A stretch of DNA of 64,000 bases from Tethya wilhelma. Taxonomy: Eukaryota; Porifera; Demospongiae; Tethyida; Tethyidae. The position numbers were made by a program, and so were the translations under genes. The stretch covers positions 3,771,383-3,835,382 of the forward strand of contig CAXIPT010000007.1 in NCBI GenBank assembly GCA_964030475.1, written 5' to 3'. The notes under the pieces are model-generated. The model saw only the letters and a list, made by a program, of their open reading frames with translations. It did not search any database and was not told where the DNA came from. How positions within the stretch are numbered: the first letter of the stretch is position 1; each line of letters begins with the position of its first letter. Shown one piece after another: positions 1,965 to 64,000 of the stretch.

Positions 1965-4165
1965 TCATTTCCCATTTCCAGTTCCACAATCATTAATTTT
2001 CCCATTCTTCCTTTCAGTAGACCAACCTGATAATAGCTTAGGGAGACAAACTATCTCACGCTCATTGACCAATTCAATGCCCATTTCCCTAGTCATTGCT
2101 TGAGAAGTTTTGTCTAATTGAAGGGGAAAGGGCACACCAGGTTCGGAAAACATGTTGAATGTGAAGTTCAAAAGTTTCTTTTCCTTCAAATTTGGCTTCT
2201 TTCTTTCCCAAACTTTGTACAGAGATTTGACAAAATCTCCAACATCTGAAATCTGATAATCCAGTTCGATGCTAACTTTAAACAAATCTGAGTGAGATAA
2301 GGCAAGGAGAATGCTGTCTCACCAAAATGCTCTGCTTCAGCCTCACTTGATACCTTGACACTACCAAATGACAAAGAAACAGCCGGACCCTCAACTGTGA
2401 ATTTCTTCAAAGAATTCTGTTCATTTATCTTCACTAATCTGGCAGTGATGTCATGGAGACTCACAGAAAATTTTCCCATCAGGATGATTGTGAGTTCCTT
2501 CATGGAATTGTTTTGTACAAGTGCCAGGAAATCTTCAGTTGAGAATTCGATTACTTCCAGTCTGAGACCGATCACATGTAGGCTAGTGTGGTGTGAAGCA
2601 AGAGCTAGAGATGAGCGGCTTAGGTTAGTGACAACTTAAACTCTTCGGTTCAAGAGATCGCAAAGAAAAAATCCATTGGTTGACTTCTTCTGGTGTCAAG
2701 CTATAAACTTTTAAGAACTTGTGTTCTCGCGATGATTGAGGGATATCAATTTTTGTAATGAGCTCCCTTCGTGGCTGCTCAGATATCTGGTTAAACAACA
2801 AGTCAAAGCATTGGTTCTCAGAGCAAGGAGTCGTGAGAAATGCAGCAATCAATCTTTGTACTGTTCCATTTGTAAACGATGGACCTTTCAAACAAACATT
2901 CCTGAAACCAGGTCGCTGAAGAAGTGTAAGCACACTAGTAGTAAATCGTGAGATATTGGCTGAATTCCCACGCCACTCTGCTTCAAGTGAGATTAGGTTT
3001 GACTGCGATGAGACAATATCTCCAAGTGCATTGGCACTATCGAATTCTTCAGCCCCAATGCTCTTAAAGTAAAGATCTATGATTCTATTCGGTGTATTCG
3101 GATCGGTGAGTAGTGGAGCTAGAGCATTAACATGATCACTACGTGCATTAAGTAAAGAGAGACTAAATTGAGATTGGCTTGATGAGGAGAAAATGGCTGC
3201 CATGATATTAGATAGTGCACTAGTTGTCTTGGTATTAGCAGAACGAGAGTAACAGCACAGCTCTAATTTGGTGACCATGCTGAAGAAATTACCAATGAGA
3301 GATTTAGTCATTTCATCTTTCCAATTGCATTGAATTGCTCCACACCTGAGAACATTGATGTACAGTTCTCTAGCATAGTAGTTGCACTTTTCCATGAGAA
3401 GCATAAGAGCATTCTCTTCTGAGAGTCGATAGTGACTCTCTTCGTTGAGAAACGAGGAATAACGAGGAGGAATTTCCTGATAGAGCTTACAAATATTCTT
3501 GTAAGTAGTATGATCTAGGATACCGGCAAAGACCTCATATTGATCAAGGTCGTACTCCGCGACTGCAGCACCAATGGTATTGTCATCACTGGTATCAAAA
3601 TCATAATTGCTGATATCAGAATCTTGGATTACATATTAGAGGGATTTATTTTCACAGCAGCTACAAGATAGTTCACAATGTCCACAGGGTGATCAAGTAG
3701 GTCATTCTCCACTAGATCAATGTTTCCTAGAGTAGCTGCCTGGTTAGAATAGCGGCCAAATTCATAGTAGCCAGTGGGACGAGCACACTCAAAGATAGAG
3801 TAGACAATGGCAGCAAAATACTTCTTCCTCATGGTTTTGTACCCGTATAGAAAATACTCAGGGTACCGCACAATGCAGTGCTGCAGCAGGTCACTAAAAT
3901 TAACAATATTTGCATCAGCTATTAAAGAAACATAATATTTCTCTGTTTGCTCTTCCTATCGTTCCTTCCAAATCATTTCAGCATCTACTCCATCAAACAC
4001 ACAGGTGTTCTCCAACTGGCAGAGGTCTACTATTGGCATGTGGACTAGTAGTGGACGACGTAGTGTTGGTGGTAGACAGGCTAGGAGCTCAGGTGGATAG
4101 TATTCAAGGCTCATAATGATCTGTCTGAGACAGAGATCCTGAAGGGATGCTGTGGAGTACTTCAT
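1965..4165 (-). pseudogene. VLR-like family pseudogene (copy 1)
   Basis: This is a decayed full-length copy of the ~700-residue leucine-rich family whose intact members lie at 18787-20889 and 21155-23290. It starts with the family N-terminus MKYSTASLQDLC at 4165. A nonsense TAG replaces the tyrosine codon of the WKERY motif near 3956, a second in-frame stop lies at 3629, and the frame shifts near 2620 and again near 2280. The remaining segments line up in order with the intact paralog, including YINVLRCGAIQ, LLQRPGF and SLHDIT. It belongs to the same subtype as the copy at 18787. It could still be transcribed, but it cannot encode the full protein. Confidence 0.85.
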
Positions 4166-6382: not shown

Positions 6383-7018
6383 GACTATATAAGTTTGGAA
6401 AGCATGTTGAACGAGAACTTCAAGAGTTTATATTCCACCAATTTTGCCGGGCTTTATATTCTCTCACAAACGAAATTAATCTCCGGCAACATCTGAAATC
6501 TGATAATTAGTCAATCTGAGTGCGTCATTCTCCATATAGAGTAGCTGCATGATTTGCAAAGCCACTGCCAAATTCATAGTATAGTCAGTGGGACGAGCAC
6601 GTTCAAAAATTGAGTAGAAAATAATAGCAAAATCATGACTTTTCTTTCATTATTTCATATACTCGGGGTCCCCCACAATGCAATGCTCAAGCTAGAATCA
6701 GAGATCTGTGCGTTTATACGATTGGGTATATATGAGACATATTGTATAGTCTATTTCAACGTTTGTTCTTCATATCATTTCAGCATGGCATCGACTCTGG
6801 ATCCATCAAACACACAGGTGTTCTCCAACTGGCAGAGATCTACTATTGGCATGTGGACCAGCAGTGGATGACGTAGTGTTGGTGGTAGACAGGCTAGGAG
6901 CTCGGGTGGATAGTATTTCAGACTCATAATAATCTTTCTGAGACAGAGATGGTATTCCAGGCTCATAATGATCTTTCTGAGACAGAGATCCTGAAGGATG
7001 CTGTGGAGTATACTTCAT
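6383..7018 (-). pseudogene. VLR-like family relic (copy 2), internally deleted
   Basis: The N-terminal coding part of the family, up to FDG, is recognisable at about 6790-7018. A piece around the CARPTGYY region lies near 6540-6620, and a C-terminal piece (TSDVG-like) near 6383-6510. Most of the middle of the gene is missing and several frames are used. Within the N-terminus a segment of about 45 bp is duplicated in tandem (two copies of CTCATAATRATCTTTCTGAG at 6920-6985). This is a dead copy. Confidence 0.75.
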
Positions 7019-16100: not shown

Positions 16101-18054
16101 ATTACATGGATGTTTTTGTGTGCAGTGCTCCTAAGGACATATACTATGACCATGAAGCTTCGGATAAGGACAAGAAAAAAGATGAAGCACTCCAAAAGAA
16201 ACCACAACAAAGTCAGTAATGATGGTATCTTGCCATAGTCTACAATACTGTGCAATATAAATTTATTGTCGTTATCAATGTCATATCAGTTTGACATGCC
16301 ATTTTGAAATGATTTTTTTTCTAGGATACATTAAGCGTGTGATTGTGCATCCTTCCTTTATGAACTGCTCCTTCTCTGAAGCTGAGAACACCCTGGCTAA
16401 GATGGACCAAGGAGAGGCCATCTTCAGACCCAGCAGCAAAGTAAGTCTAATAGAGAAGCTGAGTCACTGTTCTTATGTTGTACGTACATTGTAGTTCAGT
16501 TGGAGTCATTAACACTGTTTTGGTTGTCCCTATATAGTAAGGGTAGCCTTGAAGTGGAGAGCCTGCATGGATATTCTGCTCACTTGAATCTTCAATTTTT
16601 CGCTATTACTTGTCCATAATATCAACTACTGTAATTTCAATATTTCAAGCACTGTTAAATAGCAAATTTCACATACTGTAGATTATGTTACTAGCTACCC
16701 TTTACCAGTCGAAATCTTCATGTTTTGCCATACATAGAGTATTGTTAGTACATCAAGGCAATTTACTTCCTGGGCTCAATTGAGCACAATAGACATTAGG
16801 CTTTTTTTGTGTTATCATTTTAATTCTATTCTCTTCCCACCCCAACTCTTTCTCTCAGGGAACTGATCACCTGACTCTAACTTGGAAGGTAGATGAAGAC
16901 ATCCACCTGCACATTGACATCAAGGAGCAGGACAAGCCCAACAAATTTAGTCTTGGAAAATCTCTTCTAATAGGAGATGAGGTGAGTTGTTCCCTGGTGG
17001 TACAATGGGTAATGGTGCAAACACTGATTTAGAGACTTCCCAATAGTTATGTTACAAGTGGTACAAGGATGGTTGCTTTCTCTGTTGAGATTTTTATGTC
17101 TAAATTACACATGTATGAGTCTCAGTCATTGTTTTTGTTTGTTTATGTATGCATTAGGTATATGAAGACCTTGATGAGATATTGGCTCGATTTGTCCAAC
17201 CCATGGCCTCTTATGCCCGAGACCTCATCACTCACAAGAGCTTCAAACCAGCCAATGGTGGCAACGTGGATCTCCTGAAGAAACTCCTCAAAGAGGAGAA
17301 GAAAAAGAACCCTCAAAGAATCCCTTACTTCTTCAGCACCTCAAAGCAGTACCCAGGAAAATTTTGCCTCGGCTATCAACCTGGGAGCAAACCTCGAGTG
17401 GAGTACTTGACTGTGACCCCCGATGGATTCAGATATCGGAACAAGACTCACTCGAACGTGAACGGACTTTTGAAATGGTTCAAAGAGCACTACAAGGATC
17501 CCATTCCCAGACCGACCCCAGCCAGCAGTAGTAACACCACTCCCAGTGGTGGTGGTGGCTCACAGATTCCATCACACATCACTCAAAAAGTGGATCCCAA
17601 TCTTTATTCCACGCTTCAAGCTGCCGTGAACACTGCTCATCACCATCAACACCGCGGTAGCTCGGGCACTCCCTACACTCCTACTCATTTGGCCTATTCT
17701 ACAGGCACCCCCACACCACAATATGGACAGCAACCCCAACCTGCATTCGGAGGGGGGTTTGGTGGTCAAGGGGGCCCTGGACAATTTGGAAACTTTCAGC
17801 CCCCTCAAAGGGGTACAGTTGGGGGGCCAGGATGGGGTGGTGCTCCCCCGAATTGGAACACTGTTGGACGCACACCAACTCAGACTCCTGGTCGGACCCC
17901 TGCATACACCCCCTCCCAGACCCCTCACTCTATGATGTCATCATCTTATGGAACTCCCCCTGTAATGATGGGAAGAGGTGGACGGGGTCGTCATGGCAGT
18001 ATGCAGCACAGACGACCAGGGTCACCCATGGGCACACCTCTGTTGGATGAGTAG
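11277..18054 (+). CDS. SUPT6H: SPT6 transcription elongation factor, 3' part (12 exons)
   Basis: Spt6 is a histone chaperone and elongation factor that travels with RNA polymerase II. The exons are 11277-11735, 12226-12534, 12860-12990, 13104-13206, 13598-13801, 14265-14465, 15619-15759, 15903-16009, 16126-16211, 16325-16440, 16859-16981 and 17158-18054. All have GT-AG borders and together give 958 residues in frame. Visible domains, numbered from the first visible residue, are a YqgF/RNase H-like fold (about 20-165), a helix-hairpin-helix around VCGLGPRK (about 243-256), the [12 protein letters not shown] region, an S1 domain (about 470-550) and tandem SH2 (about 580-780). The phosphate-binding arginine lies in FRPSSK. 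A Gly/Pro/Thr-rich tail ends TPLLDE, as in animal orthologs. Roughly 700 N-terminal residues are absent: the first visible exon has a proper acceptor, so the gene must begin further left, beyond a very long intron, or the assembly is misjoined. Confidence 0.95.
12031..12096 (+). repeat. tRNA-derived relic in SPT6 intron
   Basis: TAGCTCGGTGGTAAGAGCA fits a pol III A box, and GGATTTGAATCC, about 30 bases on, fits a B box. The anticodon arm does not pair well, so this is a tRNA pseudogene or SINE head, not a working tRNA gene. It shares the core AAGAG(C/T)RTTCAACT with the relic at 13918-13985. Confidence 0.5.
13043..13099 (+). repeat. (CT)n microsatellite serving as polypyrimidine tract
   Basis: An uninterrupted CT run ends directly in TGTAG, the acceptor of the SPT6 exon that starts at 13104. 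The repeat itself is the pyrimidine tract of this short intron (12991-13103). Shorter CT runs sit next to the SPT6 acceptors at 14265 and 15619 as well. Confidence 0.85.
13222..13445. mobile_element. TAAAGTCC-family MITE, copy 1 (SPT6 intron)
   Basis: The element begins TAAAGTC and ends GGACTTTA. Inverted termini of about 25 bp (ATCTGGTTTGAGAATGCC) match three other copies in this window. TA at both edges fits a TA target-site duplication, as in Tc1/mariner-type MITEs. It is non-coding and lies wholly within the intron 13207-13597. Confidence 0.8.
13918..13985 (-). repeat. tRNA-derived relic in SPT6 intron
   Basis: Read on the minus strand it has CTTAGTGATAAGAGTG (A-box-like), then GGGTTCGAATTCC (B-box-like). 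The spacing and the shared TTCAACT core match the relic at 12031-12096. This suggests a small family of tRNA-derived elements. It is not a functional tRNA, because the anticodon region is A-rich and unpaired. Confidence 0.45.
14561..15201. mobile_element. 641-bp Mutator-like MITE with 9-bp TSD (SPT6 intron)
   Basis: The termini TAGCC(T/C)(T/C)GTTCCCAGG form inverted repeats of about 92 bp (14561-14652 and 15110-15201). I count only two mismatches. The element is flanked by a perfect 9-bp direct repeat, ACTCTGGCT, at 14552-14560 and 15202-15210. Long TIRs with a 9-bp duplication are typical of Mutator-like elements. No transposase frame is present inside, so it is non-autonomous. The near-identical arms imply a recent insertion. 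Confidence 0.85.
15273..15504. mobile_element. TAAAGTCC-family MITE, copy 2 (SPT6 intron)
   Basis: Same termini and internal sequence as the copy at 13222-13445, in the same orientation. It sits 70 bp downstream of the 641-bp Mutator-like element. The shared interior includes TTGAAATTTTGAAAT and GGAAGTGAA. Confidence 0.85.
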
Positions 18055-18786: not shown

Positions 18787-20889
18787 ATGAAGTACTCCAC
18801 AGCATCCCTTCAGGATCTCTGTTTCAGAGAGATTATTATGAGCCTGGAATACTATCCACCTGAGCTCCTAGCCCGTCTACCACCAACGCTACGTCGTCCA
18901 CTGCTAGTCAAAATGCCAATAGTAGACCTCTGCCAGTTGGAGAACACCTGTGTGTTTGATGGAGTGGATCCTGAAGAGGTTTGGAAGGAGCGATACGAAG
19001 AGCAAACACTGAAATACGTTTCTCTCATAGCCAATGATGCAAACAAAAGTTATGAAAACCAGCACAGCATTGTGTGGGATCCAGGGTATTTTCTAAACAG
19101 GTACGAAACCATGAGAGAGAAATACTTTGCTGCCATTGTCTGCTGTATCTTTGAGTGTGCTCGTCCCACTGGCTACTATAAATTCCGCTCTTACCAGGCG
19201 GCCACTATGGGTGACATTGATCTAGTGGAGTGTGGCCTACTTGATCACCCTGTGGACATTGTGAACTATCTTGTTGCTGCTGTGAAAATCAATCTCTCTC
19301 ACGTAACCCGAGATTCTTCTGATGAAGTCTACAGTACGCCAGGCCCCCCACTAGCAGAATATGAGCTTTACCAATGTGAAGAGATTGTTGGTATCTTCAA
19401 CTCTTCTACCTATAAGAATGTTAGTAAGCTCTATCAGGAAGTCCCTCCTCGTTATTACTCTTTTCTCAATGAAGAGAATCACCGTCGACTTTCAGAAGAG
19501 GATGCTCTTACACTTCTCTTGCAAATGTGCGACTACTATGCTAGTGAACTGTACATCAATGTTCTCAGGTGTGGAGCAATTCAATGGAATTGGGAAGATG
19601 AAACGATTAAATTTCTTATTGGAGAATTCTTCAGCATAGTGTACAAATTAGAGCTGTGCTGCTACTCCCCTTTCATCAATACTCAGACAGATGATAGACT
19701 ACTGGCTAATATTATGGCAGCAATTTTCTCTTCGTCAAGCCAATATCCCTTTAGTCTTTCCTTACTTAATGCATCTAGTGATCATGTTAATGCTCTAGCT
19801 CCACTGCTCTCCAACCCCAACACACCAAATAGAATTAGAGCTCTTTGCTTTGAAAGCTTCGAGATTGAAGAATTCGATGGTGCCAATGCACTTGGAGACA
19901 TTGTCTTGTCGCAGTCAAACCTAATCTCACTTAAAGCAGTGTGGTTTAAGGATTCAGCCAATATTTCACAATTTACAAATAGTGTGTTTGCACTTCTTCA
20001 GCGACCTGGTTTCAAGAATCTTTTTTTGAAAAGTCCGTCGTTTACGAATGAAACAGTACAAAAATTAGTTACCACATTCCTCACAACTCCTTGCTCCGAG
20101 GCTCAATGCTTTGATTTGTGGTTTACAGGTACATCTGAGCAGCCACCATTGGAGCCTACTACAAAGATCGATATCCCTCAATCATCACTAGAGCACAAGT
20201 TCTTGGCAGTTCGTAGCTCGAAAGCAGAAGAAGTCAACCAATGGATTTTTTCTCTGCAGTCCCTTGAAGTGAAGAGTTTAAGTGTCACTAACCTAAGCCA
20301 CTCATCTCTAGCTCTTGCTTCACACCACACTAGCCTACAGGTGATCCGTCTCAGACTGGAAGTAATCGAATTCTCAACTGAAGATTTCCTGGCACTTTTA
20401 CAAAATAACTATTTAAAGGAACTCACGATCATCCTGACGGGTAAGCTTGCTGCAGTGAATCTCCACGACATCACTGCCGGTCTAGTGAAGATTGATGAAC
20501 AGAAATCTCTGAAGAAATTTACGGTTAATGGCTTTTTTGATTTTCCTGATTTTGTTTCCTTTGGTAGTGTCAAGGTATCAAGTGAGGCTGAAGCAGAGCA
20601 GTTTGGTGAGACATCATTCTCCTTGCCTTATCTCACTCAGATTGATTTAGAGCTCAGTATTGAACTGGATTATCAGATTACAGATGTCGGAGATTTTGTC
20701 AAATCTCTGTACAAAGTTTGGGAAAGAAAGAAGCCAAATTCGAATGAACAGAAACACTTCAAATTTTTGTTCAACATACTTTCCAAACCTAGTCGATACT
20801 ATTTCTCTCCATTGGATGAAACTTCTCTAGTAATGTCTGAGGAGATGGGCATTACAGTGGGAATATTCAATGGAACTTTGCAACACTGA
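18787..20889 (+). CDS. VLR-like family protein, intact (copy 3), 700 aa
   Basis: A single-exon gene of an unnamed leucine-rich family. Residues 7-16 (SLQDLCFREI) match the Elongin-C BC-box pattern [APST]-L-x3-C-x3-[AILV]. Residues 31-39 (LPPTLRRPL) match the Cullin-2 box pattern hydrophobic-P-x2-hydrophobic-x3-hydrophobic. A conserved middle follows (WKERY, CARPTGYY, LLDHPVDIVNYLVAAV, RLSEEDAL). The region from about residue 240 to the end is built of irregular leucine-rich strands, such as LLQRPGFKNLFLKSPSF and LKELTIIL. No signal peptide or membrane helix is seen. By analogy with VHL-box LRR proteins such as ZYG11, it may be a substrate receptor of a CUL2-Elongin ubiquitin ligase. That is inference; an F-box-like reading of the N-terminus is the main alternative. 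Confidence 0.8.
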   Translation: MKYSTASLQDLCFREIIMSLEYYPPELLARLPPTLRRPLLVKMPIVDLCQLENTCVFDGVDPEEVWKERYEEQTLKYVSLIANDANKSYENQHSIVWDPGYFLNRYETMREKYFAAIVCCIFECARPTGYYKFRSYQAATMGDIDLVECGLLDHPVDIVNYLVAAVKINLSHVTRDSSDEVYSTPGPPLAEYELYQCEEIVGIFNSSTYKNVSKLYQEVPPRYYSFLNEENHRRLSEEDALTLLLQMCDYYASELYINVLRCGAIQWNWEDETIKFLIGEFFSIVYKLELCCYSPFINTQTDDRLLANIMAAIFSSSSQYPFSLSLLNASSDHVNALAPLLSNPNTPNRIRALCFESFEIEEFDGANALGDIVLSQSNLISLKAVWFKDSANISQFTNSVFALLQRPGFKNLFLKSPSFTNETVQKLVTTFLTTPCSEAQCFDLWFTGTSEQPPLEPTTKIDIPQSSLEHKFLAVRSSKAEEVNQWIFSLQSLEVKSLSVTNLSHSSLALASHHTSLQVIRLRLEVIEFSTEDFLALLQNNYLKELTIILTGKLAAVNLHDITAGLVKIDEQKSLKKFTVNGFFDFPDFVSFGSVKVSSEAEAEQFGETSFSLPYLTQIDLELSIELDYQITDVGDFVKSLYKVWERKKPNSNEQKHFKFLFNILSKPSRYYFSPLDETSLVMSEEMGITVGIFNGTLQH

Positions 20890-21154
20890 GATTGCCTGTT
20901 TGTATACGTGTTAATTCCTGCAGCTATCTTCAAGCATGCATTCACTGTTATTATATCATTATTAGAAGTGTTAATTATATTATATCATAATAGTCAATCA
21001 TTATTATATCGACGCAGTCTAAAAAAGTGCTTATACATATGCATATATTTCATGTAATCATATTATGATCAAATTAATGGTGATTATGAGCATGCCGAAT
21101 ATATAATTCAACAAGACATTGTGCATATTAATTAATTTGTTTGTATAATTATAG

Positions 21155-23290
21155 CTATGGATAAGTGCACAAGCTATAGATAAACTTCTTGTTCACTTCC
21201 ATTCCTATCTGGTCAGCAATATACTGTGAGTTCTCATCTAGTGACTGAGCCGATTGCATCCTGTTTTTGTAAACAAAATTGAGTGTGAACCTCTTGATTC
21301 TTGGTTGCTTGCTCTTCTTCCAGCTGTTGAACAAAGCCTCAAACAATTCAGTCTCATCTACTGAGTCTTCATCGATTGGAATTAGAATGTTGAGTTCCAA
21401 ACTGAACTGGTTCAGATGTGGAAGAGAAAAAAGTACCCCGGCAAACTGTTCTACTTCAGTTATGGATGATAGTTCACTGCAACCATAAGTTTTGGTTAGA
21501 TTGAAACTGATAGAGCCACTAACAATGAGTGTTTCTAAAGTCTGTGATTCAGCTATTGTCATCAGACCAGAAGTGATGTCAGTGAGACTCACTGGACCAA
21601 CAGGAGCAAACTGAAGTTCCTTTAGTGATTTGTTTTTTAAGAGATTGATGAAATGTTCTGTAGAGAAGTCTGTCCAATATAGTAGAAGATGACCTACATT
21701 GAGGCTGCTGTTGTTTGCAGCAAGACAAAGAGTTTGAAGGGAATAGACAGTTGAGATACACAAACACTTTAGTTTGAGAGGCTGTAACGTCAGTAGCCAT
21801 TTATGAATATCAGCATCACCTGATTTGGTATAAATTTCCAGTGACTTGTAGTCCTGAGCTGATTGAGAAATTGCATGGGTGTCTATATCTTGATCAGGAA
21901 TATCAGAAAAGTCAGTAATGGACGACATTGTATGTAGTACCATAGTTTGGTCATGTGAACAAGGTGTAGTGAGGAATGTGGCGATCAAACACTTTATGGC
22001 ATTGCATGAAAATGTAGCTCGATCAAGATACAGGTGTTTGAAATGAGGTCGCTGAAGAAGATCGACAATACTGCCTAAAAATGATGGATTAGATACAAAA
22101 CTGCCACTTAATACTAACAAGCAAATCTTCCGCTGATAAGACAGTATATCACTAACTAATTTACCTTTCACAAAAAAATCATTATCAAGCAAATGTAACT
22201 CTTCGATTCTACAGGCAGAGTTGGGAGTGGATAGTAGTGCAGCAACAGCTTTGAAATCATCGTTAGAAGCATCAGATATTGTCAGACTAAAACACTGCTC
22301 ACTAGAGAAGGACATAATTGCTTCCAAAACAAAATTGTCTGTGAACACACAAGCTCTTCTTTCTGAATAATAGGACAGTTCCAATTTAAACATTTTGCTG
22401 AAAAAAAGACCAATCACCGACTTACACCTGTCCTCCATCCAATTCCATCGTATTGCACCACACCTGACAACATTGATGGCTAGTTCACTAGCATAGTAGT
22501 CACACTTTTCCATAAGAAGCATAAGAGCATCCTCTTCTGAAAGTCGACAGTGATTCCTTTGATTGAGAAAGGAGGAATAGCGAAAAGGAACTTCCTGATA
22601 GATCTCATTGGTCTTCATGTATGCCCAATGCTTCAATAATATTGCGTCGTCTAAGGAAAGCATGTGACAAGACAGTGAAAAGTTAGATAAAGGACATTTA
22701 AAATCTATCTTTCTTGGATTAGTAAAATAAGAATCATCTGATAGTTCCCTGGTTACAAGAACACGGTCAATTCTTACAGCAGCAACAAGATAGTTGACAA
22801 GATCCACAGGATGATCTAGCAGACCACATCTCTTTAGATCAATGTCTTCGAATGTTGCTACTCCATAATCATCATTGCATCTATAGTAGCCAGTAGGACG
22901 AGCACAGCCCAAAATTGAGTGAATAATTGTGGCAAAATATTTTTCTTTCATTGTTTGGTCACAGCCGTACTTGTCCACTAAATGTTCAAAATCAGTCTGA
23001 GGCTCGTGACTAGTATTGTATTCCTTGGATATAAGATACGTGTAATTTAATGTCTGTTGTTCATATCTCTCCTTCCAAACCATTTCAGCGTCCACTCCAT
23101 CAAACACACAGGTGTTCTCCAGATGGCAGAGGTCTACTATTGGCATTTTGACTAGCAGTCGACGACGTAGCGTTGGTGGTAGACAGGCTAGGAGCTCAGG
23201 TGGATAGTATTCCAGGCTCATAATAATCTCTCTGAGACAGAGATTCTGAAGGGATGCTGTGGAGTACTTCATGACTCTGGATGGGACCAA
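21155..23290 (-). CDS. VLR-like family protein, intact (copy 4), 711 aa
   Basis: An intronless paralog of the gene at 18787, of a second subtype. The family start MKYST is residue 7 (codon at 23272). The ATG at 23290 adds six non-conserved residues, so 23272 is the more likely start. It has the BC-box-like SLQNLCLREI and Cul2-box-like LPPTLRRRL, then the family middle (CARPTGYYR, LLDHPVDLVNYLVAAVRIDR) and a leucine-rich C-terminal half. It is tail-to-tail with copy 3, only 265 bp apart, and head-to-head with copy 5. No frame break is present, so it is probably functional. The substrate is unknown. Confidence 0.8.
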   Translation of the reverse strand: MVPSRVMKYSTASLQNLCLREIIMSLEYYPPELLACLPPTLRRRLLVKMPIVDLCHLENTCVFDGVDAEMVWKERYEQQTLNYTYLISKEYNTSHEPQTDFEHLVDKYGCDQTMKEKYFATIIHSILGCARPTGYYRCNDDYGVATFEDIDLKRCGLLDHPVDLVNYLVAAVRIDRVLVTRELSDDSYFTNPRKIDFKCPLSNFSLSCHMLSLDDAILLKHWAYMKTNEIYQEVPFRYSSFLNQRNHCRLSEEDALMLLMEKCDYYASELAINVVRCGAIRWNWMEDRCKSVIGLFFSKMFKLELSYYSERRACVFTDNFVLEAIMSFSSEQCFSLTISDASNDDFKAVAALLSTPNSACRIEELHLLDNDFFVKGKLVSDILSYQRKICLLVLSGSFVSNPSFLGSIVDLLQRPHFKHLYLDRATFSCNAIKCLIATFLTTPCSHDQTMVLHTMSSITDFSDIPDQDIDTHAISQSAQDYKSLEIYTKSGDADIHKWLLTLQPLKLKCLCISTVYSLQTLCLAANNSSLNVGHLLLYWTDFSTEHFINLLKNKSLKELQFAPVGPVSLTDITSGLMTIAESQTLETLIVSGSISFNLTKTYGCSELSSITEVEQFAGVLFSLPHLNQFSLELNILIPIDEDSVDETELFEALFNSWKKSKQPRIKRFTLNFVYKNRMQSAQSLDENSQYIADQIGMEVNKKFIYSLCTYP

Positions 23291-24545: not shown

Positions 24546-26071
24546 ATGAAGTACTCCACAGCATCCCTTCAGAATCTCTGTCTCAGAGAGATTATTATGA
24601 GCCTGGAATACTATCCACCTGAGCTCCTAGCCCGTCTACCACCAACACTACGTCGTCGACTGTTAGTCAAAATGCCAATAGTAGATCTCTGCCAGCTGGA
24701 GAATACCTGTGTGTTTGATGGAGTGAATGCTGAAACGGTTTGGAAGGAGAGATATGAACAGCAGACATTGAAATACGTTTCATTTAGTGCCCATGAGTAT
24801 TTTGACTATTGTTCTAATCTTGACGATCCACATGTCTGCATAATGGAGAATGATCCTGAAGGTTTTTTGAACCGGTACAAGACAATGAGAGAGAAATATT
24901 TTGCTGCAATTGTTCGCTCCATTTTTGACTTTGGTCGTCCTACAGGCTACTATCAATGCTACATCGATGGTTTTGGAGTATCAACGTTTGAAGACATTGA
25001 CCTAAAAAGATGTGGTCTGCTAGATCATCCTGTGGACCTTGTCAACTATCTTGTTGCTGCTGTAAGAATTGACCGTGTTCTTGTAACCAGGGAACTATCA
25101 GATGATTCTTATTTTACTAATCCAAGAAAGATTCAATTTGGCCGTCCATTTTTTGAATTTGAGCTTTTAGACTATATGATCATGAAGAGGGAATTTAATC
25201 CCCTTAAGTATTGGGCGTACATGAAGACCAATGAGCTCTATCAGGAAGTCCTTCCTCGCATACCTCCCTTCTCACTGAAGAGAATCACTATCGACTTTCA
25301 GAAGAGGATGCTCTTACGCTTCTCATGAAAAAGTGTGACTACTATGCTAGTGAACTGTACATGAATGTCAGCAGGTGCAGAGCAATTCGATGGAAGTGGA
25401 TGGATGACAAAATCAAGACTTTGATGGGGCTGTTTTTCAGCAAAATGTCCAAATTAGAACTATGCTACTTTAACGACTCAAATGTTGTCTCACCAAACAG
25501 AAATTTGGTTATTGAAACAATCCTCTTCTCCTCTAGTCAGCAACCCTTTAGCCTAACAGTATGTTCTCTCTATGCTAATAACATCCATCCTGTATCCAAA
25601 CTATTATCAAGCCCTGATGTACCATGCAGAATTGAGGAGCTGCATTTTAGGGACATTTATACCGAACCGGGGGTGGAGACAATCTGTGATATTCTTTCCT
25701 ATCAGTCAAACTTATCTTCTTTTGAAGCCAACTGGAATTCACAAACGATATCTATATGTACAGGTTCACCACTTGTCAGTTCTCTTACCAATCTCATTCA
25801 AAGGCCACGCTTTAAGCGTCTTTCTCTCAAAGGCCCAGTATTTTCAAGCAGTGATCTAAAGTGTTTGATCAAAACGTTCCTGACCACACCTTGCTCACAC
25901 GAACAAAGTGTGCTTCTGCACACATCCATTGCTGAGTCCTCGAATAACCTCAAAGAATACTTGGGCATCAGTGCAATACCTGAATCGGCTCAGAAATACA
26001 AATCACTAGACATTCTAACTCTATGCCAGTACCACAGCCCGCACTTTTATCAACCTAAATTTACTCTTTGA
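24546..26071 (+). pseudogene. VLR-like family, frameshifted and truncated (copy 5)
   Basis: The N-terminal 240 codons are intact (MKYSTASLQNLC, BC-box-like and Cul2-box-like segments, WKERY, LLDHPVDLVNYL). Compared with copy 3, one base is missing between 25258 and 25280, in the region equivalent to RYYSFLNEEN. The coding sense continues in another frame from there (the RLSEEDALTLLM equivalent, through CDYYASELYMNV). That second frame stops at 26071, so about 230 C-terminal residues of the leucine-rich part are missing. It is either a recent pseudogene or a sequencing error combined with a real C-terminal loss. The N-terminal half alone could still encode a short protein. Confidence 0.75.
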
Positions 26072-28958: not shown

Positions 28959-30422
28959 TGTCACGGGTCCTTTTGACGGCTTGACCTGTAACCACAGTTG
29001 TCTGCAAATCAACTCTCTCTCTCTCCAGTGTTAGAGCCACCACCCTATAACTTGGACGAGTATGTGGATCGCTGGTTTGCTTCTTTGGGTGAATTGTCAG
29101 AAGAAATGATGAAAGGAAATGCAGTGCTGTATTTTGTTGGTCCTGCTGGAACAGGCAAAACAACTACCCTGCTTGCGCTGTACACTACAATGAAGCAAAG
29201 TCTGCAGAACATAGAATGTATTTATATTGCTGAACCGAAGAGCACTGATTACCCATCGCATCTAGGCAAGAATCTGTATGCCTTCATAGATAATGCCCAG
29301 GATCTCCAGAAAAATCCTTCCTTACTTTCAAGCCTAAAAATGTATGTAAAGTCAATGTGCCTTGCATTTTCACCTTGTCTTACTCTTTCCAGTGGAGGGT
29401 TATGTACTATTGGAAGTCACATTCAATATACAAAGATATACAATTTCAAACCTTTCTCTTTTGTGGAGGTAGACGAATATGCTGAAAAAAACAAGTCCAA
29501 AGTTGTAAAAGAAGTAGTTGACACTACTAAGCACCTTAATGCCTGTGTTCCAAGGGCTCTCGTACAATGTTCTACATCTAGGCAAGTTATGCAATGGATG
29601 CGTTCCAATGTTCATCATTTCCTAGATAAACTTGAAGCCAGAGTAAAGTCTGCCAAAGTAGATACCCAAGAGTTCAGTCATCTCAACGAAGTGCGCTATA
29701 TTTTGATAGAGTATACCATTACAAACAAAGTTGCTCCTGAAAGCGAACCAATTGCTCTTGCTTCTGGATTGTTTTTTCTTAATGATGAAGAGGAACTTCA
29801 AGTGATGTTTCCTGTTCATATTATGTTGGAACAAATGTTTGTATATATCAAAAGCCTGTACCGCCTGATACAGAAACATGATGTGGGAATGGCATTTGAG
29901 TATCTAGTACATGCTCAACTCAACTGTACTGCCTGTAAGATAACTTGTTTAGGGAGAAAACCCTCTCCAGTAGGGAATTCGTTAAAAGCATCCCACCCAA
30001 CCAAGGCAAACACAGAGCATCTAATCCCACGATCTATGAAGTGTTGTATTCAAGCTACTGTAGAAGATAACTTGAAATTTGACAAAACTACTGTAATTAA
30101 GCTCCATGAAAATCATGTTGCGATTGATTTCATAGTCTACACTAAACCTCATGGAACAGATTCAGGCCAACTTTTTCTTGTACAAGCATCAGTTACTAAA
30201 TATCAGAATCGAAAAACTCCAGCTTTGGACCAAATTTATGTATCAAGGGACTGTTTTCACAGCAAATCTGTTGTGGAGTTTTACAGTCAAAAGACATCTG
30301 TTCCAGTTGACCAATGCTTCTTCGTTTATGCTTGTTCAGAGGTTCCTATTAATGCTGATTTTACAACAAAAAAGTATGTCAAAAACAAAGTATATTTCTT
30401 ACATGTAAAACTAATTAGCTAA
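28625..30422 (+). CDS. P-loop NTPase with C-terminal nuclease-like domain (Crinkler/RHS-like)
   Basis: Three exons, 28625-28724, 28806-28889 and 29029-30422, join in phase to give 525 residues. Residues 1-60 are extremely basic (KKTRKRKR, RKKRRRKRRR), a likely nuclear or nucleolar signal. Walker A is GPAGTGKTT (about 99-107). FIDNAQ (about 147-152) fits a Walker B. The C-terminal part has AIDFIVYT then LFLVQASVTKY (about 425-453), which resembles the D...(E/Q)xx core of restriction-endonuclease-fold domains. NTPase plus REase-like domain is the architecture of Crinkler and RHS proteins; the assignment is inference. Both introns are mainly GT repeats beginning at the donor. The gene sits inside inverted GTAGAATG repeats, so it may be element cargo. 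An unrelated AAA-type ATPase is the alternative. Confidence 0.65.
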
Positions 30423-31168
30423 TTAAAACCCACTCCAGTGAACATATATACCTTATAGACTATCATTTAAAGAGATACAATTTTGTTCAAATCTCATTAT
30501 CCATTGACAAAAGTAAACTTGTTATTTAAAAGGGCTGTTTATTTGCTGTAGTATAAGAAGTAGAATGGCAGTAGAATAAGCAGATGGCAGTAGAATAAGC
30601 AGATGGCAGTAGAATGAGCACAGAGAGAAAGGTCTAATCAGGTTCTAATCAGTCCTCAATGCTCATTCCTCTTCAAACTACTGTATACATGCATGTACAG
30701 GAGTACTTTGCGAGAGTTCAGACCCTCCAAAAACACTTTATACCTTCACTTCTGTTATGAACCACTCTAACAGCTAGCTGCTGGCTCTTTATGTAGGGAA
30801 TATGGAGAGAGATCTGCAGAGCAGATCGCGTTTTATTTTTGACACAAATCCCTCTCCATAGTTATTCTCACAGAATCAATGTGTACCTATTATTCTCAAA
30901 TTATTCCGGGAATAGTTTGCCAAGGCCTATCCTTCTACTTTCATTCTACTCAGTGCTCATTCTGTGGCATCATTCTACTACCATTCTACTATCATTCTGC
31001 TGCTCATTCTCAGTACTGCTCATTCTACTGCAATTCTACTGCTCATTCTATATTTTGACTCCCATTGTTAAATTTTTTTTTCAAATTCTTATGTAAAAAT
31101 GAGTCAGTTGGCTAAGTAGTGCAGTTATTTAAAAGGAGCTACGTATACAATGGAAAAAAGAGATAGAA

Positions 31169-31760
31169 ATACTCTATAGCATGCATCCCTTAAGGATATC
31201 TCTGTCTCAGAGAGATTATTATGAGCCTGGAATACTATGCACCTGAGCTCCTAGGCTAAGCCTGTCTACCACCAACACTATGTCATCCACTGCTAGTCAA
31301 AATGCCAATAGTAGATCTCTGCCAGTTGGAGAACACCTGTGTGTTTGATGGAGTGGATGCTGAAGAGGTTTGGAAGAAGCGATACAAACAACAAACATTG
31401 AAATATTAGTGGCAATTTAGTGCCCACGAGTCGATATCGACTATTGTTCTAATCGTGACAATCCACATGTATGCATTATGGAGGTTTTTTGAACTTGTAC
31501 AAGACAATGAGAGAGAAATATTTTGCTCCAATTTTTCGCTCCATTTTTGACTTTGGTCGTCCTACAGGCTACTATCAATGCTACAATGATGGTTTAGGAG
31601 TATCAACGTTTGAAGATGGACCTAAAGAGATGTGGTCTGTTTGATCATCCTTTAGAGTTTCCAATTGACCTCAGTGCCCTCACTTTTAAATTAGACAAAG
31701 TTGAACTTTTATAGTTGTCTTTTTTTTTTTTTTTTTTACTCCACATAATAATTATTATTT
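31169..31760 (+). pseudogene. VLR-like family relic (copy 6)
   Basis: A short remnant of the subtype of copy 5. It has the N-terminal segment with several indels (SLEYYAPELL, LENTCVFDGVDAEE, then a stop after LKY), part of the CARPTGYY region (FGRPTGYYQCYNDG), then a jump to the 3' end. The 3' flank (TTTAGAGTTTCCAATT, ACAAAGTTGA, a T run, and TGTTTCTTGAGTTTC) matches that of copy 5 at 26138-26290. It is therefore a deleted duplicate of copy 5, including downstream DNA. Confidence 0.75.
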
Positions 31761-32139: not shown

Positions 32140-33486
32140 CTACAATATTGCACCAGAGCTATTATGAATCATTTCAAGAGCCAACAGATCAGCCATTGTT
32201 TCCCTACGACGGACTAGATCAAACTGACTACCGTGTACCATGATCTCTGGGGGACGACCCCTTGAGTTGTAGTTGGAACTCATAACAAACCCGTACGCTC
32301 CAGCAGAGCGTACGGCCAACAAGTCACCTTCGACAATCCTCAACTTTCTATCCTTTCCCAGGAAATCCCCTGTTTCACACACTGGACCAACAACGTCGCA
32401 GGAAACCTCCTCCTTTTGGTCGTCATATAAGACTGGCTCTATCCCATGCCAAGCTCCATAAAGAGAGGGACGTATCAAGTCGTTCATCGCTGCGTCGACC
32501 ACTGCAAAAGACTTGTAGGCAGATGTCTTTATTAGCTCGACGCGAGTGACCAAGATCCCAGCCTGTGCAGATATCGACCGTCCTGGCTCCACATATATCT
32601 CCAAGTGACTGTATTGCTTGTTTGAAGAAAGCCTCTTTCGAACTTCGCACAGGTAATCTGCAGGAGTGGGTGGATTTTCGTCTCCGTTGTATGACACCCC
32701 CAAACCTCCTCCAATGTCGACGTGCTTCAGGACTATGCCCAACTCGGAGAGATGATCGATGAGAAGAAGAATACAATCCAGAGCATCTATGAAAGGTTTT
32801 TTAGTGGTCAGCTGAGAGCCGATATGGCAGTCAACACCAATAATTTCTATGTTTGAAAGCTCCCTGGCATGCTGGTATACTGCCGGGGCCACATTGATGT
32901 CCACACCAAACTTATTTTCTTTCAGTCCAGTGGAAATATAAGGGTGTGTATGAGGGTCCACATCTGGGTTTACCCTGAGAGAGATCCGAGCAACTTTTCC
33001 CACAGACTCTGCCACCTCAGAGATCTTTTCCAGCTCCCTCTCAGACTCGACGTTGAAGCAGCAGATTCCAGCCTCCAAGCCTCTTGCAATTTCTCTGCTT
33101 GTCTTCCCAACACCTGAGAATATCACTCTGGAAGCCTCACCTCCAGCAGCAAGGACCCTCTCCAGCTCCCCTACAGAGACAATGTCAAAACCTGCTCCAA
33201 GTTTAACCAGAGTTCTCAGAACCGCCAGGTTGCTGTTGGCCTTCACTGCATAGCAGATGAGGTGTGGCCATCCTTTCAGTGCCTCCTCGTATGCTTTGTA
33301 GCCTTCTTCTAAGCCCCGGCAGGAATATATGTAGGCTGGAGTCCCGTAGGATTGGGCAATTTGAGCTACTGGTACTTCCTCAGCATACAATTCACCATTG
33401 TGTCTGGGAAACCAGTCAGGGGTAGCCATGTTTACGTTCACAGTTGTTGGGCCCAGGGGAGGGGTATTCGACACATGTGACTGCAC
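32140..33486 (-). CDS. lysA: diaminopimelate decarboxylase, bacterial type (horizontal-transfer candidate)
   Basis: This enzyme decarboxylates meso-diaminopimelate to L-lysine using PLP, the last step of bacterial and plant lysine synthesis, which animals normally lack. The open frame is 448 residues without introns. The PLP lysine is in YAVKAN (K82). Also present are HIGSQL, the glycine-rich GGGLGVSY phosphate-binding loop, EPGRSI, the active-site CETGDFL, and AGAYGFVMSSNYN. All parts of the fold-type III barrel and the C-terminal beta domain are there, so it looks active. M20 (codon at 33429) lines up with the usual bacterial start (MATPDWFPRHNGELY). The 19 residues before it may be extra or may serve as targeting. 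The neighbours are VLR-like pseudogenes. Lack of introns, the bacterial-type sequence and the eukaryotic surroundings argue for transfer from bacteria; endosymbiont contamination is unlikely in a continuous contig. Confidence 0.92.
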   Translation of the reverse strand: MQSHVSNTPPLGPTTVNVNMATPDWFPRHNGELYAEEVPVAQIAQSYGTPAYIYSCRGLEEGYKAYEEALKGWPHLICYAVKANSNLAVLRTLVKLGAGFDIVSVGELERVLAAGGEASRVIFSGVGKTSREIARGLEAGICCFNVESERELEKISEVAESVGKVARISLRVNPDVDPHTHPYISTGLKENKFGVDINVAPAVYQHARELSNIEIIGVDCHIGSQLTTKKPFIDALDCILLLIDHLSELGIVLKHVDIGGGLGVSYNGDENPPTPADYLCEVRKRLSSNKQYSHLEIYVEPGRSISAQAGILVTRVELIKTSAYKSFAVVDAAMNDLIRPSLYGAWHGIEPVLYDDQKEEVSCDVVGPVCETGDFLGKDRKLRIVEGDLLAVRSAGAYGFVMSSNYNSRGRPPEIMVHGSQFDLVRRRETMADLLALEMIHNSSGAIL

Positions 33487-34993: not shown

Positions 34994-36700
34994 TCAGAAG
35001 TAGAATAGTTTAAACTTCACTTCGATTCCAATCTGGTCAGCAATATATTGTGAGTTCTCATCCAGTGACTGAGGAGATTGTGTAACAAAATTGATTGCAA
35101 ATCTCTTAATTTTTGGTCTCTTGCTCTTCTCCCAGCTATTGAACAAAGCCTCAAAGAATTCAGTCACACCTCCTGAGTATTGATCAACTGGAGTTAAAAT
35201 GCTGAGTTCCAGACTGAACTTGTTCAGATGTTGAAGAGGAAATAGTACCTTACCAAACTGTTCTATTTCAGCTCTGGATGATAGTTCAACATATCCGAAC
35301 ATTTCTGTAAGCGGGTTGTATCCAAAGTTGGTAGAGCTGCTAACAGTGAGTGCTTTCAAAGTCTGTGATCCAGCTATTGTCATCAGACCAGAAGTGATGT
35401 CAGTGAGACTCACTGGACCATTAAGAACAAATTCAAGTTCCTTCAGTGATTTGTTTAGTAAAAGATTGAGGAAATTATCTGCCGAGAAGTCTGTCCGATG
35501 TAGTAGAAGATGGCTCACTTGGAGACTGGTATTGTTTGCAGCAAGACTAAGAGTAGAGATGCTTGATTTAACAGTGGAGATACACAAACGCTTCAAGCTA
35601 AGAGATTGTGTTGACAGCAACCAAGAATTGATAGTAGTACCAGGGTCACCTGAGAGTGTGTGGATTTCCAATGATTTGTACTCATGCATGAGTTGATGGA
35701 GGGATTAAATCTAAATTGCTATCAGCGGACTCAGTGATGGGTGCTGTAATATGTGTGAGTATTTCAACAGATTGGTCATGTGAGCACGGTGTAGTGAGGA
35801 ATGTTTCAACCAAGCTCTTTAGTTCCCTGTCGGAGAGTAAAATACCTTTCAGAGAAAGACACTTGAAATGTGGTCACTGAAGAAGGTTGATAATAGCACT
35901 TATACACTCTGATCCACGAATTGGCTGGTTATTATGGCAGGATGCTTCAATATAGATAAATTTGACAGCTGGATGAGAATATCACTAAAGCTTAGCCCGG
36001 ATTGAGATTTAGTGCACATTCTTTGAGTACAAGCTCCTCATTTTGGCAGTAAGGACCAGGCAGTAGCCGGGATACAGCATTAACAGTGCCGTATTCAACA
36101 TCAAGCAATGATAAACTACGAAGTTTTTTTTCAAATTTTGGCGAATATGTAAAATTGTTCAAAAAATCCCTCAGTACTATATCATCTGGACTGGTTAAAT
36201 CAACGTCTAAAGATGTGCAACACAATTCCAATTTGTTTAAATTGCTGAAAAAATCTCCAACAAGTGGCTTAGTTTCTGGATCAGGCAACTTGCATTCAAT
36301 AATAATAATATCACAATATCTATCAACGTTGATGTACAAATCAGTAATGTGGTAGTTACATTTATTCATGAGAAGCATAAGAGCATCCTCTTCTGAAAGT
36401 CGATAGTGATTCTCTTCATTGAGAAAGGAGAAATAGCAAGGAGGGACTTCCTGATGGAGCTCATTGGTCTTCATGTACGCCCAATAATAATACTATTGGT
36501 GCATAAAAGGTGAAAGACATAGAGTAAGCTCAAAATGCATTAAAGGTGAATCAAGGCAAATGTTGTCGGGATTGGTAAAATAAGCTTAAGATTCATCAGA
36601 CATGCAGCTCCCTGGTCACAAGAATACATTTAATTCTTACAGCAGCAACAAGATAGTTGACAAGGTCTATAGGATGATCATGCAGACCACATACATACAT
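34994..36700 (-). pseudogene. VLR-like family pseudogene (copy 7), 5' truncated
   Basis: The C-terminal 230 residues form an open frame (34994-35689: YKSLEIHTLSGD to IADQIGIEVK). A middle block (35992-36474: YFSFLNEENHYRLSEEDALMLL to the LLPGPYCQNEEL region) is in another frame. The two are separated by stops, with the sense LTTPCSHDQS recognisable between them. Near 36640-36690 only the VNYLVAA equivalent remains. The first ~150 residues, including the BC-box-like start, are gone. The closest subtype is copy 8. Confidence 0.8.
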
Positions 36701-37856: not shown

Positions 37857-40025
37857 TCATTCCCTCTGGCCAGCAATGTAATATGAGCTCTCATCCAGTG
37901 GTTGTGGAGTTTGTGTCGTAATATAATTGACACACAATGTAAATCTCTTTATTCTTGGTCTCTTGTTCTTCTTCCAGCTATTGAACAAAGCCTCAAAAAA
38001 TTCAGTCACACCTACAGATTCTTCATCAAGTGAAAATAAAATACCGAGATCCAAATTGAACTGATTCAGATGTGGAAGAGAAAAAAGTACCTTGCCAAAC
38101 TGTTCTACTTCGGCTCTGCACGATAGTTGAATATAACCAAATATTTTCATTTTGTAATTGACATAGCTGCTAACAGTGAGTGTTTCTAAGGTCTGTGATT
38201 CAGCTATTATCATCAGACCACGAGTGATGTCAGTAAGACTCACTGGACCATTGGGAACAAACTGAAGTTTCTTTAATGATTTGTTTTGTAGGAGTTTGAG
38301 AAAATGCTCTGCTGAGAAGTTTGTCTGATGTAGGAGAAGATGGCTCACTTGGAGGCTGGTATTGTTTGCAGCAAGACTAAGAATAGAGTTGCTTGTTTGA
38401 AAAGTGGAGATACACAAATGCTTCAAACCAAGAGATTGTGTAGACAGCAACCAAGAATTGATAGTAGTACCAGTGTCACCTGAGAGTGTGTGGATTTCCA
38501 ATGATTTGTACTTTTGAGTTGACGGCTGAACTACAATACTATCTAAACTTTTACCAAAAGACTCAGCTGCAATGGGTGATGTAGTATCATGTGCTTGTAT
38601 TACCATACTTTGGTTGTGTGAACATGGTGTAGTTAGGAATGTTGTAATCAAGCTCCTTAGTTCACTGTTAGAAATGAACACGTGTTCGAGAGAGAGATGC
38701 TTGAAATGTGGTCGTTGAAGAAGGTTAATGCCACCACTTATACATTCTGATCCACGAATTGGCTGCGTATAGGATGACACTAAATCAAATTTAGATAAAT
38801 TCAACTGACTGATTAAAATATCATCAACGCCACAAATAGAACTGTTCGTAAATTGGGAGTCCTTTATTACAAGTTCCTCAATTTGGCAAGAGGGTCCTGA
38901 CAGTAGTCTGGATGTAGCATACATGATGTTGCAATCAACACCAAGCAATGATAGGCTACGAAGATCATATATTGATGAACGATATCTAAAAACATCTAAA
39001 AAATCCCTCATTATTTCATCTGAAGTGGGTAAATTAGCGATTAAACATGTACAGCATAATTCCAACTTGCACACATTGCTGAAAAAACGTCCAATAAGTG
39101 ACGTAGTCTCTGGGTCACATAAATTCCATTGAATACGATGATATCTATCAATGTTGATGTACAAATCAGTAATGTGGTAGTTACATTTATCCATGAGAAG
39201 TATAAGAGCATCCTTTTCTGAAAGTCGACAGTGATTCTCTTCATTGAGAAAGGAGAAATAGCGAGGAGGGATTTCCTGATAGAGCTCATTGGTCTTCATG
39301 TATACCCAATGAGATTGTTGCCCATAAAGTAAATCAGTACACGTGTAAACACATAGAGTAAACTCAAACTCTGGTAAAGGTGCATCAAAGTAAATGTTGT
39401 CAGGATAGGTAAAACAAGATTCATCAAACAGCTCTCCGGTTACAAGAACACGGTCAATTCTTACAGCAGCAACAAGATAGTTGACAAGGTCCACAAGATG
39501 ATCAAGCAGACCACATCTCCTCAGATCAATGCCTTCGAGTGTTGCTGCACCACAATTATTCCTATTTTTGTAGTAGCCAGTAGGACGAGCACAGTCAAAA
39601 ATTGAGTATACAATTGCGGCAAAATATTTTTCTCTCATTGTTTGGTACTTGTCCAATAAAATTTCAGAATCATTCACAATACTGCGATGGTAACAATTGC
39701 TACCCAAATACTGTGCAGTGTCAAAATTGGCGCCAGAAAAAGCACAATGACCATATTTCAGTGTTTGCTTTTTGTATCGCTCCTTCCAAACTTCTTCAGC
39801 ATCCACTCCATCAAACACACAGGTGTTCTCCAACTGGCAGAGGTCAACTATTGGCATTTTGACTAGCAGTGGACGACGTAGTGTTGGTGGTAGACAGGCT
39901 AGGAGCTCAGGTGTATAGTATTCCAGGCTCATGATAATCTCTCTGAGACAGAGATTCTGAAGGGATGCTGTGGAGTACTTCATGACTATACATGCGCCAA
40001 GACTTAACCGTTGATAATGATGCAC
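37857..40025 (-). CDS. VLR-like family protein, near-intact (copy 8), 722 aa
   Basis: A long open frame of the copy-4 subtype. The family start MKYST is residue 15 (codon at 39983). The upstream ATG at 40025 adds a non-conserved stretch. The BC-box-like SLQNLCLREI, the Cul2-box-like LPPTLRRPL, CARPTGYYK, VNYLVAAVRIDR and the leucine-rich C-terminal half are all present. At the end the family motif IADQIG is read as IAGQRE and then stops, because of a small indel. The last ~10 residues therefore differ and the protein is slightly short. It is probably still functional or only recently damaged. Confidence 0.75.
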   Translation of the reverse strand: MHHYQRLSLGACIVMKYSTASLQNLCLREIIMSLEYYTPELLACLPPTLRRPLLVKMPIVDLCQLENTCVFDGVDAEEVWKERYKKQTLKYGHCAFSGANFDTAQYLGSNCYHRSIVNDSEILLDKYQTMREKYFAAIVYSIFDCARPTGYYKNRNNCGAATLEGIDLRRCGLLDHLVDLVNYLVAAVRIDRVLVTGELFDESCFTYPDNIYFDAPLPEFEFTLCVYTCTDLLYGQQSHWVYMKTNELYQEIPPRYFSFLNEENHCRLSEKDALILLMDKCNYHITDLYINIDRYHRIQWNLCDPETTSLIGRFFSNVCKLELCCTCLIANLPTSDEIMRDFLDVFRYRSSIYDLRSLSLLGVDCNIMYATSRLLSGPSCQIEELVIKDSQFTNSSICGVDDILISQLNLSKFDLVSSYTQPIRGSECISGGINLLQRPHFKHLSLEHVFISNSELRSLITTFLTTPCSHNQSMVIQAHDTTSPIAAESFGKSLDSIVVQPSTQKYKSLEIHTLSGDTGTTINSWLLSTQSLGLKHLCISTFQTSNSILSLAANNTSLQVSHLLLHQTNFSAEHFLKLLQNKSLKKLQFVPNGPVSLTDITRGLMIIAESQTLETLTVSSYVNYKMKIFGYIQLSCRAEVEQFGKVLFSLPHLNQFNLDLGILFSLDEESVGVTEFFEALFNSWKKNKRPRIKRFTLCVNYITTQTPQPLDESSYYIAGQRE

Positions 40026-46207: not shown

Positions 46208-46266
<59 letters not shown>

Positions 46267-60157: not shown

Positions 60158-64000
<3,843 letters not shown>

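Follow-up and report, generated by a model that had tools for sequence, protein, structure and literature searches.

The window analysed here, a stretch of 64,000 nucleotides from the genome of the sponge Tethya wilhelma (contig C7, positions 3771383-3835382, in an assembly of 124.6 Mb and 204 contigs), contains eight copies of a family of leucine-rich repeat (LRR) proteins, which are probably lineage-expanded, PRAME-like Elongin-BC/Cullin substrate receptors with module-wise concerted evolution. A conserved pair of motifs at the N-terminus, the size of the family, and a silent-site pattern pointing to exchange of the N-terminal docking module among cluster neighbours were observed directly. 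An Elongin/Cullin-2 substrate receptor family had been proposed in the initial annotation of this DNA; the genome-wide motif pair, its PRAME-like spacing, and a predicted helix followed by a ribonuclease inhibitor (RI)-like LRR speak for the proposal, and the receptor role is what we infer from them. The expansion and the clear module-wise concerted evolution are new here, the receptor logic being already known; no description of a sponge or lineage-expanded BC-box/LRR family like this one was found in the open-access literature.

Three copies in the window (A, B, and C) are intact and five are broken or partial, as identified from the list of open reading frames (ORFs) and by tblastn. A and B are single-exon genes oriented tail to tail, encoding proteins that are 45% identical; tblastn adds the other six, C among them. 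Each of the three intact copies has a BC-box at residues 7-16 and a Cul2-box at residues 31-39, with a gap of 14 residues. The former agrees with the published broad pattern (S,T,P)Lxxx(C,S,A)xxx-phi (PMC4878042), and the latter with phi-P-x2-phi-x3-phi, located C-terminal to the BC-box; the broad patterns were taken from PMC4878042 and PMC13061254, and a strict BC-box pattern was applied as well. The proposed fit of LPPTLRR(P/R)L to the Cul2-box is thereby borne out in the three intact copies. The claim that every copy with a surviving N-terminus carries SLQ(D/N)LC(L/F)REI holds for four of seven (A, B, C, and c5); c1 has RQI, c2 has ILQ..RKI and an internal duplication, and c6 is without SLQ. 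The Cul5-box, phi-x2-LP-phi-P-x2-phi-x2-(Y/F)L, was found in none of 15 proteins, nine of which have an N-terminus.

The significance of the motif pair was assessed using 20,000 shuffles of protein A, in which a BC-box followed by a Cul2-box at a gap of 5-30 residues was required. Within the first 60 residues, the ordered pair arose in 2 shuffles under the strict pattern and 62 under the broad one; anywhere in the protein, it arose in 38 and 1938, respectively. The broad BC-box by itself is weak evidence, being present in 72% of shuffled sequences. These counts bear on a very unlikely explanation, in which the proteins are LRR scaffolds or sensors outside ubiquitylation, with a fortuitous motif match and a helical module that binds some other partner. 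The frequency of the broad pair anywhere in shuffled proteins is in its favour, as is the result that the isolated module gave no significant fold match when the three-helix VHL/SOCS-box fold was sought; against it, the N-terminal pair is rare in shuffles, and the motif residues belong to the invariant set of the family across the genome.

This invariant set was derived from a genome-wide search, in which the N-terminal 80 residues of A gave at least 63 matches on nine contigs, 47 of them within open frames of at least 500 aa. Extraction yielded 51 modules in 23 genomic groups, with 12 matches omitted (11 unfetched and one broken by stops). Both reduced motifs (L-x3-[CSA]-x3-phi and phi-P-x2-phi-x3-phi) are kept in 48 of the 51 modules. 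The full published BC-box consensus is present in 37/51, the consensus without its first position in 49/51, the strict version in 27/51, and the Cul2-box pattern in 50/51. The motif positions rank among the least variable ones: L8 (51/51), C/S at 12 (50/51), and I/V/L at 16 (50/51), followed by P32 (50/50), R36 (50/51), P44 (50/50), D47 (48/50), L51 (50/50), T54 (48/50), G59 (48/50), and W66 (47/50). Public protein collections contain at least 12 relatives, with no named protein among the matches listed; additional searches of the collection with profiles and N-termini revealed no relatives beyond these 12, about 8000 candidates having been scored in each of two of all these searches. Four relatives on public contigs (P0003-P0006) all have predicted starts at MFDGVDAE, corresponding to module residue 56, which reflects either start choice or an exon boundary near the exchange breakpoint described below.

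Profile searches leave the module stretch assignable neither to Elongin A nor to the F-box. The best Elongin_A (PF06881) match reached 16.6 bits on copy C (cut-off 29.8), and the best Pfam F-box match 15.6 bits on L066, a member of another subfamily (cut-off 20.5), so that the clear F-box hit named in the initial annotation as grounds for abandoning its proposal did not appear. Both alignments begin at about residue 30. Since unrelated families match with equal or better E in the same scans (DUF1374, 0.0032; Brix, 0.0071; Atypical_Card, 0.02), each of these matches may be due to chance. Such resemblance would nevertheless allow SKP1/CUL1 or Elongin-A-type docking. In the former case, the stretch LPxxLRRxLLxxLPxxDLxxLExT...W would be a divergent F-box for SKP1-CUL1 and the upstream helix an accessory. 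We consider such an F-box-LRR type unlikely: every F-box match lies under the cut-off, unrelated families are equally strong on the same 25 modules (Atypical_Card on 2 of 25), and the upstream helix is conserved like the box itself. An F-box does not require a conserved helix upstream. It is quite unlikely that the module is distantly related to the Elongin A BC-box domain and docks in an Elongin-A-like manner with CUL5, or with dual cullin use; the preference for CUL2 over CUL5 comes from the motif pattern. Neither ZYG11 nor ZER1 is named among the 5 and 7 PDB sequences that two module profiles matched at E up to 10. PRAME, ZYG11, and LRR1 are missing from the lists of fold matches, to which we attach no weight. 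The genome itself contains VHL-domain matches and one partial Skp1/Elongin C-type exon.

In most clusters, the first ~60-75 codons are near-identical including silent sites, and the remainder of the gene is diverged. To quantify this, 40 genes of at least 350 codons were compared at silent sites using a fixed split (codons 1-60 versus >80), which is free of breakpoint-fitting bias. In the window, the numbers of four-fold differences in the first 60 codons are 0/29 (A/B), 2/29 (A/C), and 2/29 (B/C), compared with 32/66, 38/70, and 24/88 in the LRR. When 37 pairs within 100 kb were summed per contig, the module was less diverged than the rest in four of five contigs: 10/268 versus 312/966 on C7, 2/37 versus 22/54 on C1, 22/228 versus 292/1404 on C3, and 78/379 versus 287/668 on C2, where four pairs cross subfamilies (L025). 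The 8.65-Mb cluster of C2 shows a weaker contrast (module synonymous divergence, dS, 0.35-0.49), and the young pair on C8 is similar throughout (1/27 and 5/110). The same signal extends to dead fragments, c2 and c6 sharing ~90% of module bases and c2 and A ~92%, and to an interchromosomal pair, L013 (C1) and L019 (C7), with silent differences of 0/33 before codon 78 and 62/99 after it.

Fitted breakpoints fell at codons 63-85 in 16 of 20 hand-chosen pairs. Among the other four, L004/L005 breaks at codon 174 and L059/L063 at 211, where a truncated frame ends; L010/L009 and L027/L028 are without a supported break. Fisher values were obtained for 17 of the 20 pairs (L004/L005, L002/L001, and L059/L063 were omitted). 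They err on the optimistic side, the breakpoints having been selected by fit, and support is weak (p 0.011-0.036) for the two L053 pairs, L068/L074, and L079/L080.

Two other causes of the local identity were considered and rejected. Constraint at the DNA level is not the cause, because silent sites of far pairs are nearly as diverged in the module (5830/9542 = 0.61) as elsewhere (15446/23740 = 0.65). Purifying selection alone fails likewise, given the same far-pair divergence and a module omega (dN/dS) that, inside four clusters, is not below that of the LRR. Silent sites of the module are nearly identical within most clusters and saturated between clusters, which is most simply explained if the module has repeatedly undergone gene conversion, or some equivalent exchange, among cluster members and at times across chromosomes. 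Domain-wise gene conversion has been described for zebrafish NLR genes (PMC4852459). The initial annotation had noted the N-terminal box as the best-conserved part and the LRR half as the most variable, which is correct at the protein level; since silent sites follow the same pattern, however, this contrast is by itself no sign of selection.

The module protein is nevertheless under real long-term constraint: over 38 ORFs, mean identity is 48% for residues 7-66 versus 22% for the LRR, with silent sites of far pairs saturated to about the same degree in both. Within four clusters, omega ranges over 0.41-0.56 for the module and 0.25-0.69 for classes of LRR residues, these being regional pairwise averages that single selected sites could escape; the module values are not lower than the LRR values, and purifying selection is seen throughout both parts in these clusters. 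No positive selection was seen on the predicted concave strands (strand omega 0.30-0.49). The comparison of c7 with C gave omega above 1 in two stretches (1.17 for residues 81-222; 1.93 for residues 223-300, with dS 0.085), on which we do not build. Overall, there is no convincing sign of positive selection in the LRR, and the earlier view of the variable LRR as the mark of selection by changing targets finds no signal in its regional omega.

The AlphaFold2 (AF2) model of copy A (mean predicted local distance difference test, pLDDT, 79.4) predicts module helices at residues 5-19, 25-30, 33-42, 45-51, and 62-89; the BC-box residues fall inside the first of them. A protein-interaction domain separate from the docking motifs, as expected of Cullin-2 RING ligase (CRL2) receptors, is present in the predicted RI-like part. 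The rest of the protein had been described as an irregular leucine-rich fold; this cannot be read from motifs in A, where 9 LxxLxL-type matches against a shuffle mean of 7.3 are uninformative, and is supported instead by the predicted fold and a profile match. A alone matched nothing in PDB by phmmer, nor did profiles of two other subfamilies, which limits support for the predicted LRR fold to the window subfamily. The subfamilies are linked to one another along their length by profile comparison (probabilities of 99.7 and 98.9%), and a Pfam scan of 10 diverse ORFs gave two weak matches only (LRR_6, E 0.025; MauE, E 0.069).

In the proposed mechanism, residues 1-66 would form a helical docking module. 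Its BC-box helix (about residues 7-19) would engage Elongin C, and a cullin, CUL2 being the likeliest, would be contacted by the LP-box helix 31-42 together with the PxxDLxxLExT...GIDxxxW stretch. Choice of the ubiquitylation target would fall to the RI-like LRR, and the complex would act as a ligase. If this is true, PRAME-style Elongin/Cullin receptors have multiplied independently and far beyond mammals, a receptor repertoire can hold its ligase interface uniform as the recognition half diverges, and domain-confined exchange offers a testable model for the growth of large E3 receptor families. It also corrects a common inference: N-terminal conservation in a local cluster is no evidence of selection if silent sites are conserved too. 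More tentatively, and with the odds rather against it, one may picture an early-branching animal with ~60 or more degradation receptors, in which a ~70-codon module is a self-standing conversion unit among neighbours and even between chromosomes, the LRRs evolve independently, and the whole would be a recognition set encoded in the germline, perhaps an immune one, with exchange and not selection alone keeping its output module uniform.

Table 1. Family copies and their parts in the window
Feature	Position	Strand	Basis
Copy A, intact, single-exon, 700 aa	18787..20889	+	ORF, tblastn, AF2 model
Copy A docking module, residues 1-66; best conserved part genome-wide, silent sites homogenised within cluster	18787..18984	+	alignments, four-fold sites
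Copy A BC-box SLQDLCFREI, residues 7-16, within predicted helix 5-19	18805..18834	+	pattern match, AF2 model
Copy A Cul2-box LPPTLRRPL, residues 31-39, overlapping predicted helix 33-42	18877..18903	+	pattern match, AF2 model
Copy A RI-like leucine-rich domain (predicted), residues 250-695	19534..20871	+	AF2 model, fold match, profile match
Copy B, intact, single-exon, 705 aa	21155..23272	-	ORF, tblastn
Copy B BC-box SLQNLCLREI	23225..23254	-	pattern match
Copy B Cul2-box LPPTLRRRL	23156..23182	-	pattern match
Copy C, intact, single-exon, 708 aa counted from the ATG at 39983	37857..39983	-	ORF, tblastn
Copy C BC-box SLQNLCLREI	39936..39965	-	pattern match
Copy C Cul2-box LPPTLRRPL	39867..39893	-	pattern match
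c1, broken by stop codons and frameshifts; N-terminus retained, CLRQI	2076..4165	-	tblastn
c2, fragment; docking module internally duplicated, downstream part decayed	6581..6951	-	tblastn
c5, N-terminus intact, frame lost near 25250, no match for the 3' part	24546..26014	+	tblastn
c6, fragment; docking module and linker, both decayed	31167..31702	+	tblastn
c7, broken; N-terminal module unmatched	35000..36691	-	tblastn

In pairwise comparisons of A, B, C, c1, and c5, upstream homology reaches to an AG at -3 or -4 from the ATG in nine of the ten pairs; for c1/c5 the limit is -17. It looks as if it were a splice acceptor, which the resemblance does not prove. Between family copies lies an intronless diaminopimelate decarboxylase ORF, lysA (32140-33486, minus strand; TIGR01048, 527.8 bits, cut-off 297.9), a candidate for bacterial gene transfer on an animal contig. 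One open frame of 1543 aa (46265-50896, minus strand) contains numerous TPR stretches, of which TPR_12 matches 14, and carries a CHAT domain at its C-terminus. An ORF of 474 aa (28998-30422, plus strand) is P-loop NTPase-like with weak AAA/STAND matches only, a short-repeat tract at 61474-61992 (minus strand) reads within an ORF as a long (RE)n run, and 17182-18054 holds what we take to be an SPT6-like C-terminus.

Several known systems share parts of this architecture. F-box LRR proteins of the FBXL type likewise have a docking module ahead of an RI-like LRR, the F-box resemblance being weak; the family described here differs in its additional conserved BC-box helix and in F-box scores below the cut-off. 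The module resembles Elongin A weakly by profile and fold, but stays under the cut-off in every scan, and Elongin A is not known to contain an LRR. The zebrafish NLR-B30.2 genes are also a large family in which gene conversion differs between domains (PMC4852459); the proteins, however, are of another kind, and the NACHT domain was unmatched in the 13 family proteins scanned (A, B, C, and the 10 diverse ORFs). LRR1, the receptor of CRL2-Lrr1, combines an LRR with a BC-box and a Cul2-box as this family does, and the conserved L and L+4 residue of its BC-box insert into the Elongin C pocket (PMC8682755). In LRR1, however, the VHL box comes after the LRR, and the protein has a PH domain at its N-terminus and a zinc finger at its C-terminus (PMC8682755). 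The docking motifs stand before the LRR in our family, in the reverse order, so that the layout of a VHL box followed by an LRR, once likened to both LRR1 and PRAME, agrees with PRAME. PRAME has an LRR fold. Its N-terminal BC-box (residues 25-34) and Cul2-box (48-56) are 13 residues apart (PMC3418287), compared with 14 here, and PRAME/PRAMEF genes also show lineage-dependent expansion (PMC3037382), the likeness being one of motifs and layout rather than of sequence alignment. In the same study, gene conversion was not seen among bovine PRAME paralogues, and positive selection acts on some clades of the family (PMC3037382); the sponge family, in contrast, combines strong exchange with a regional omega below 1.

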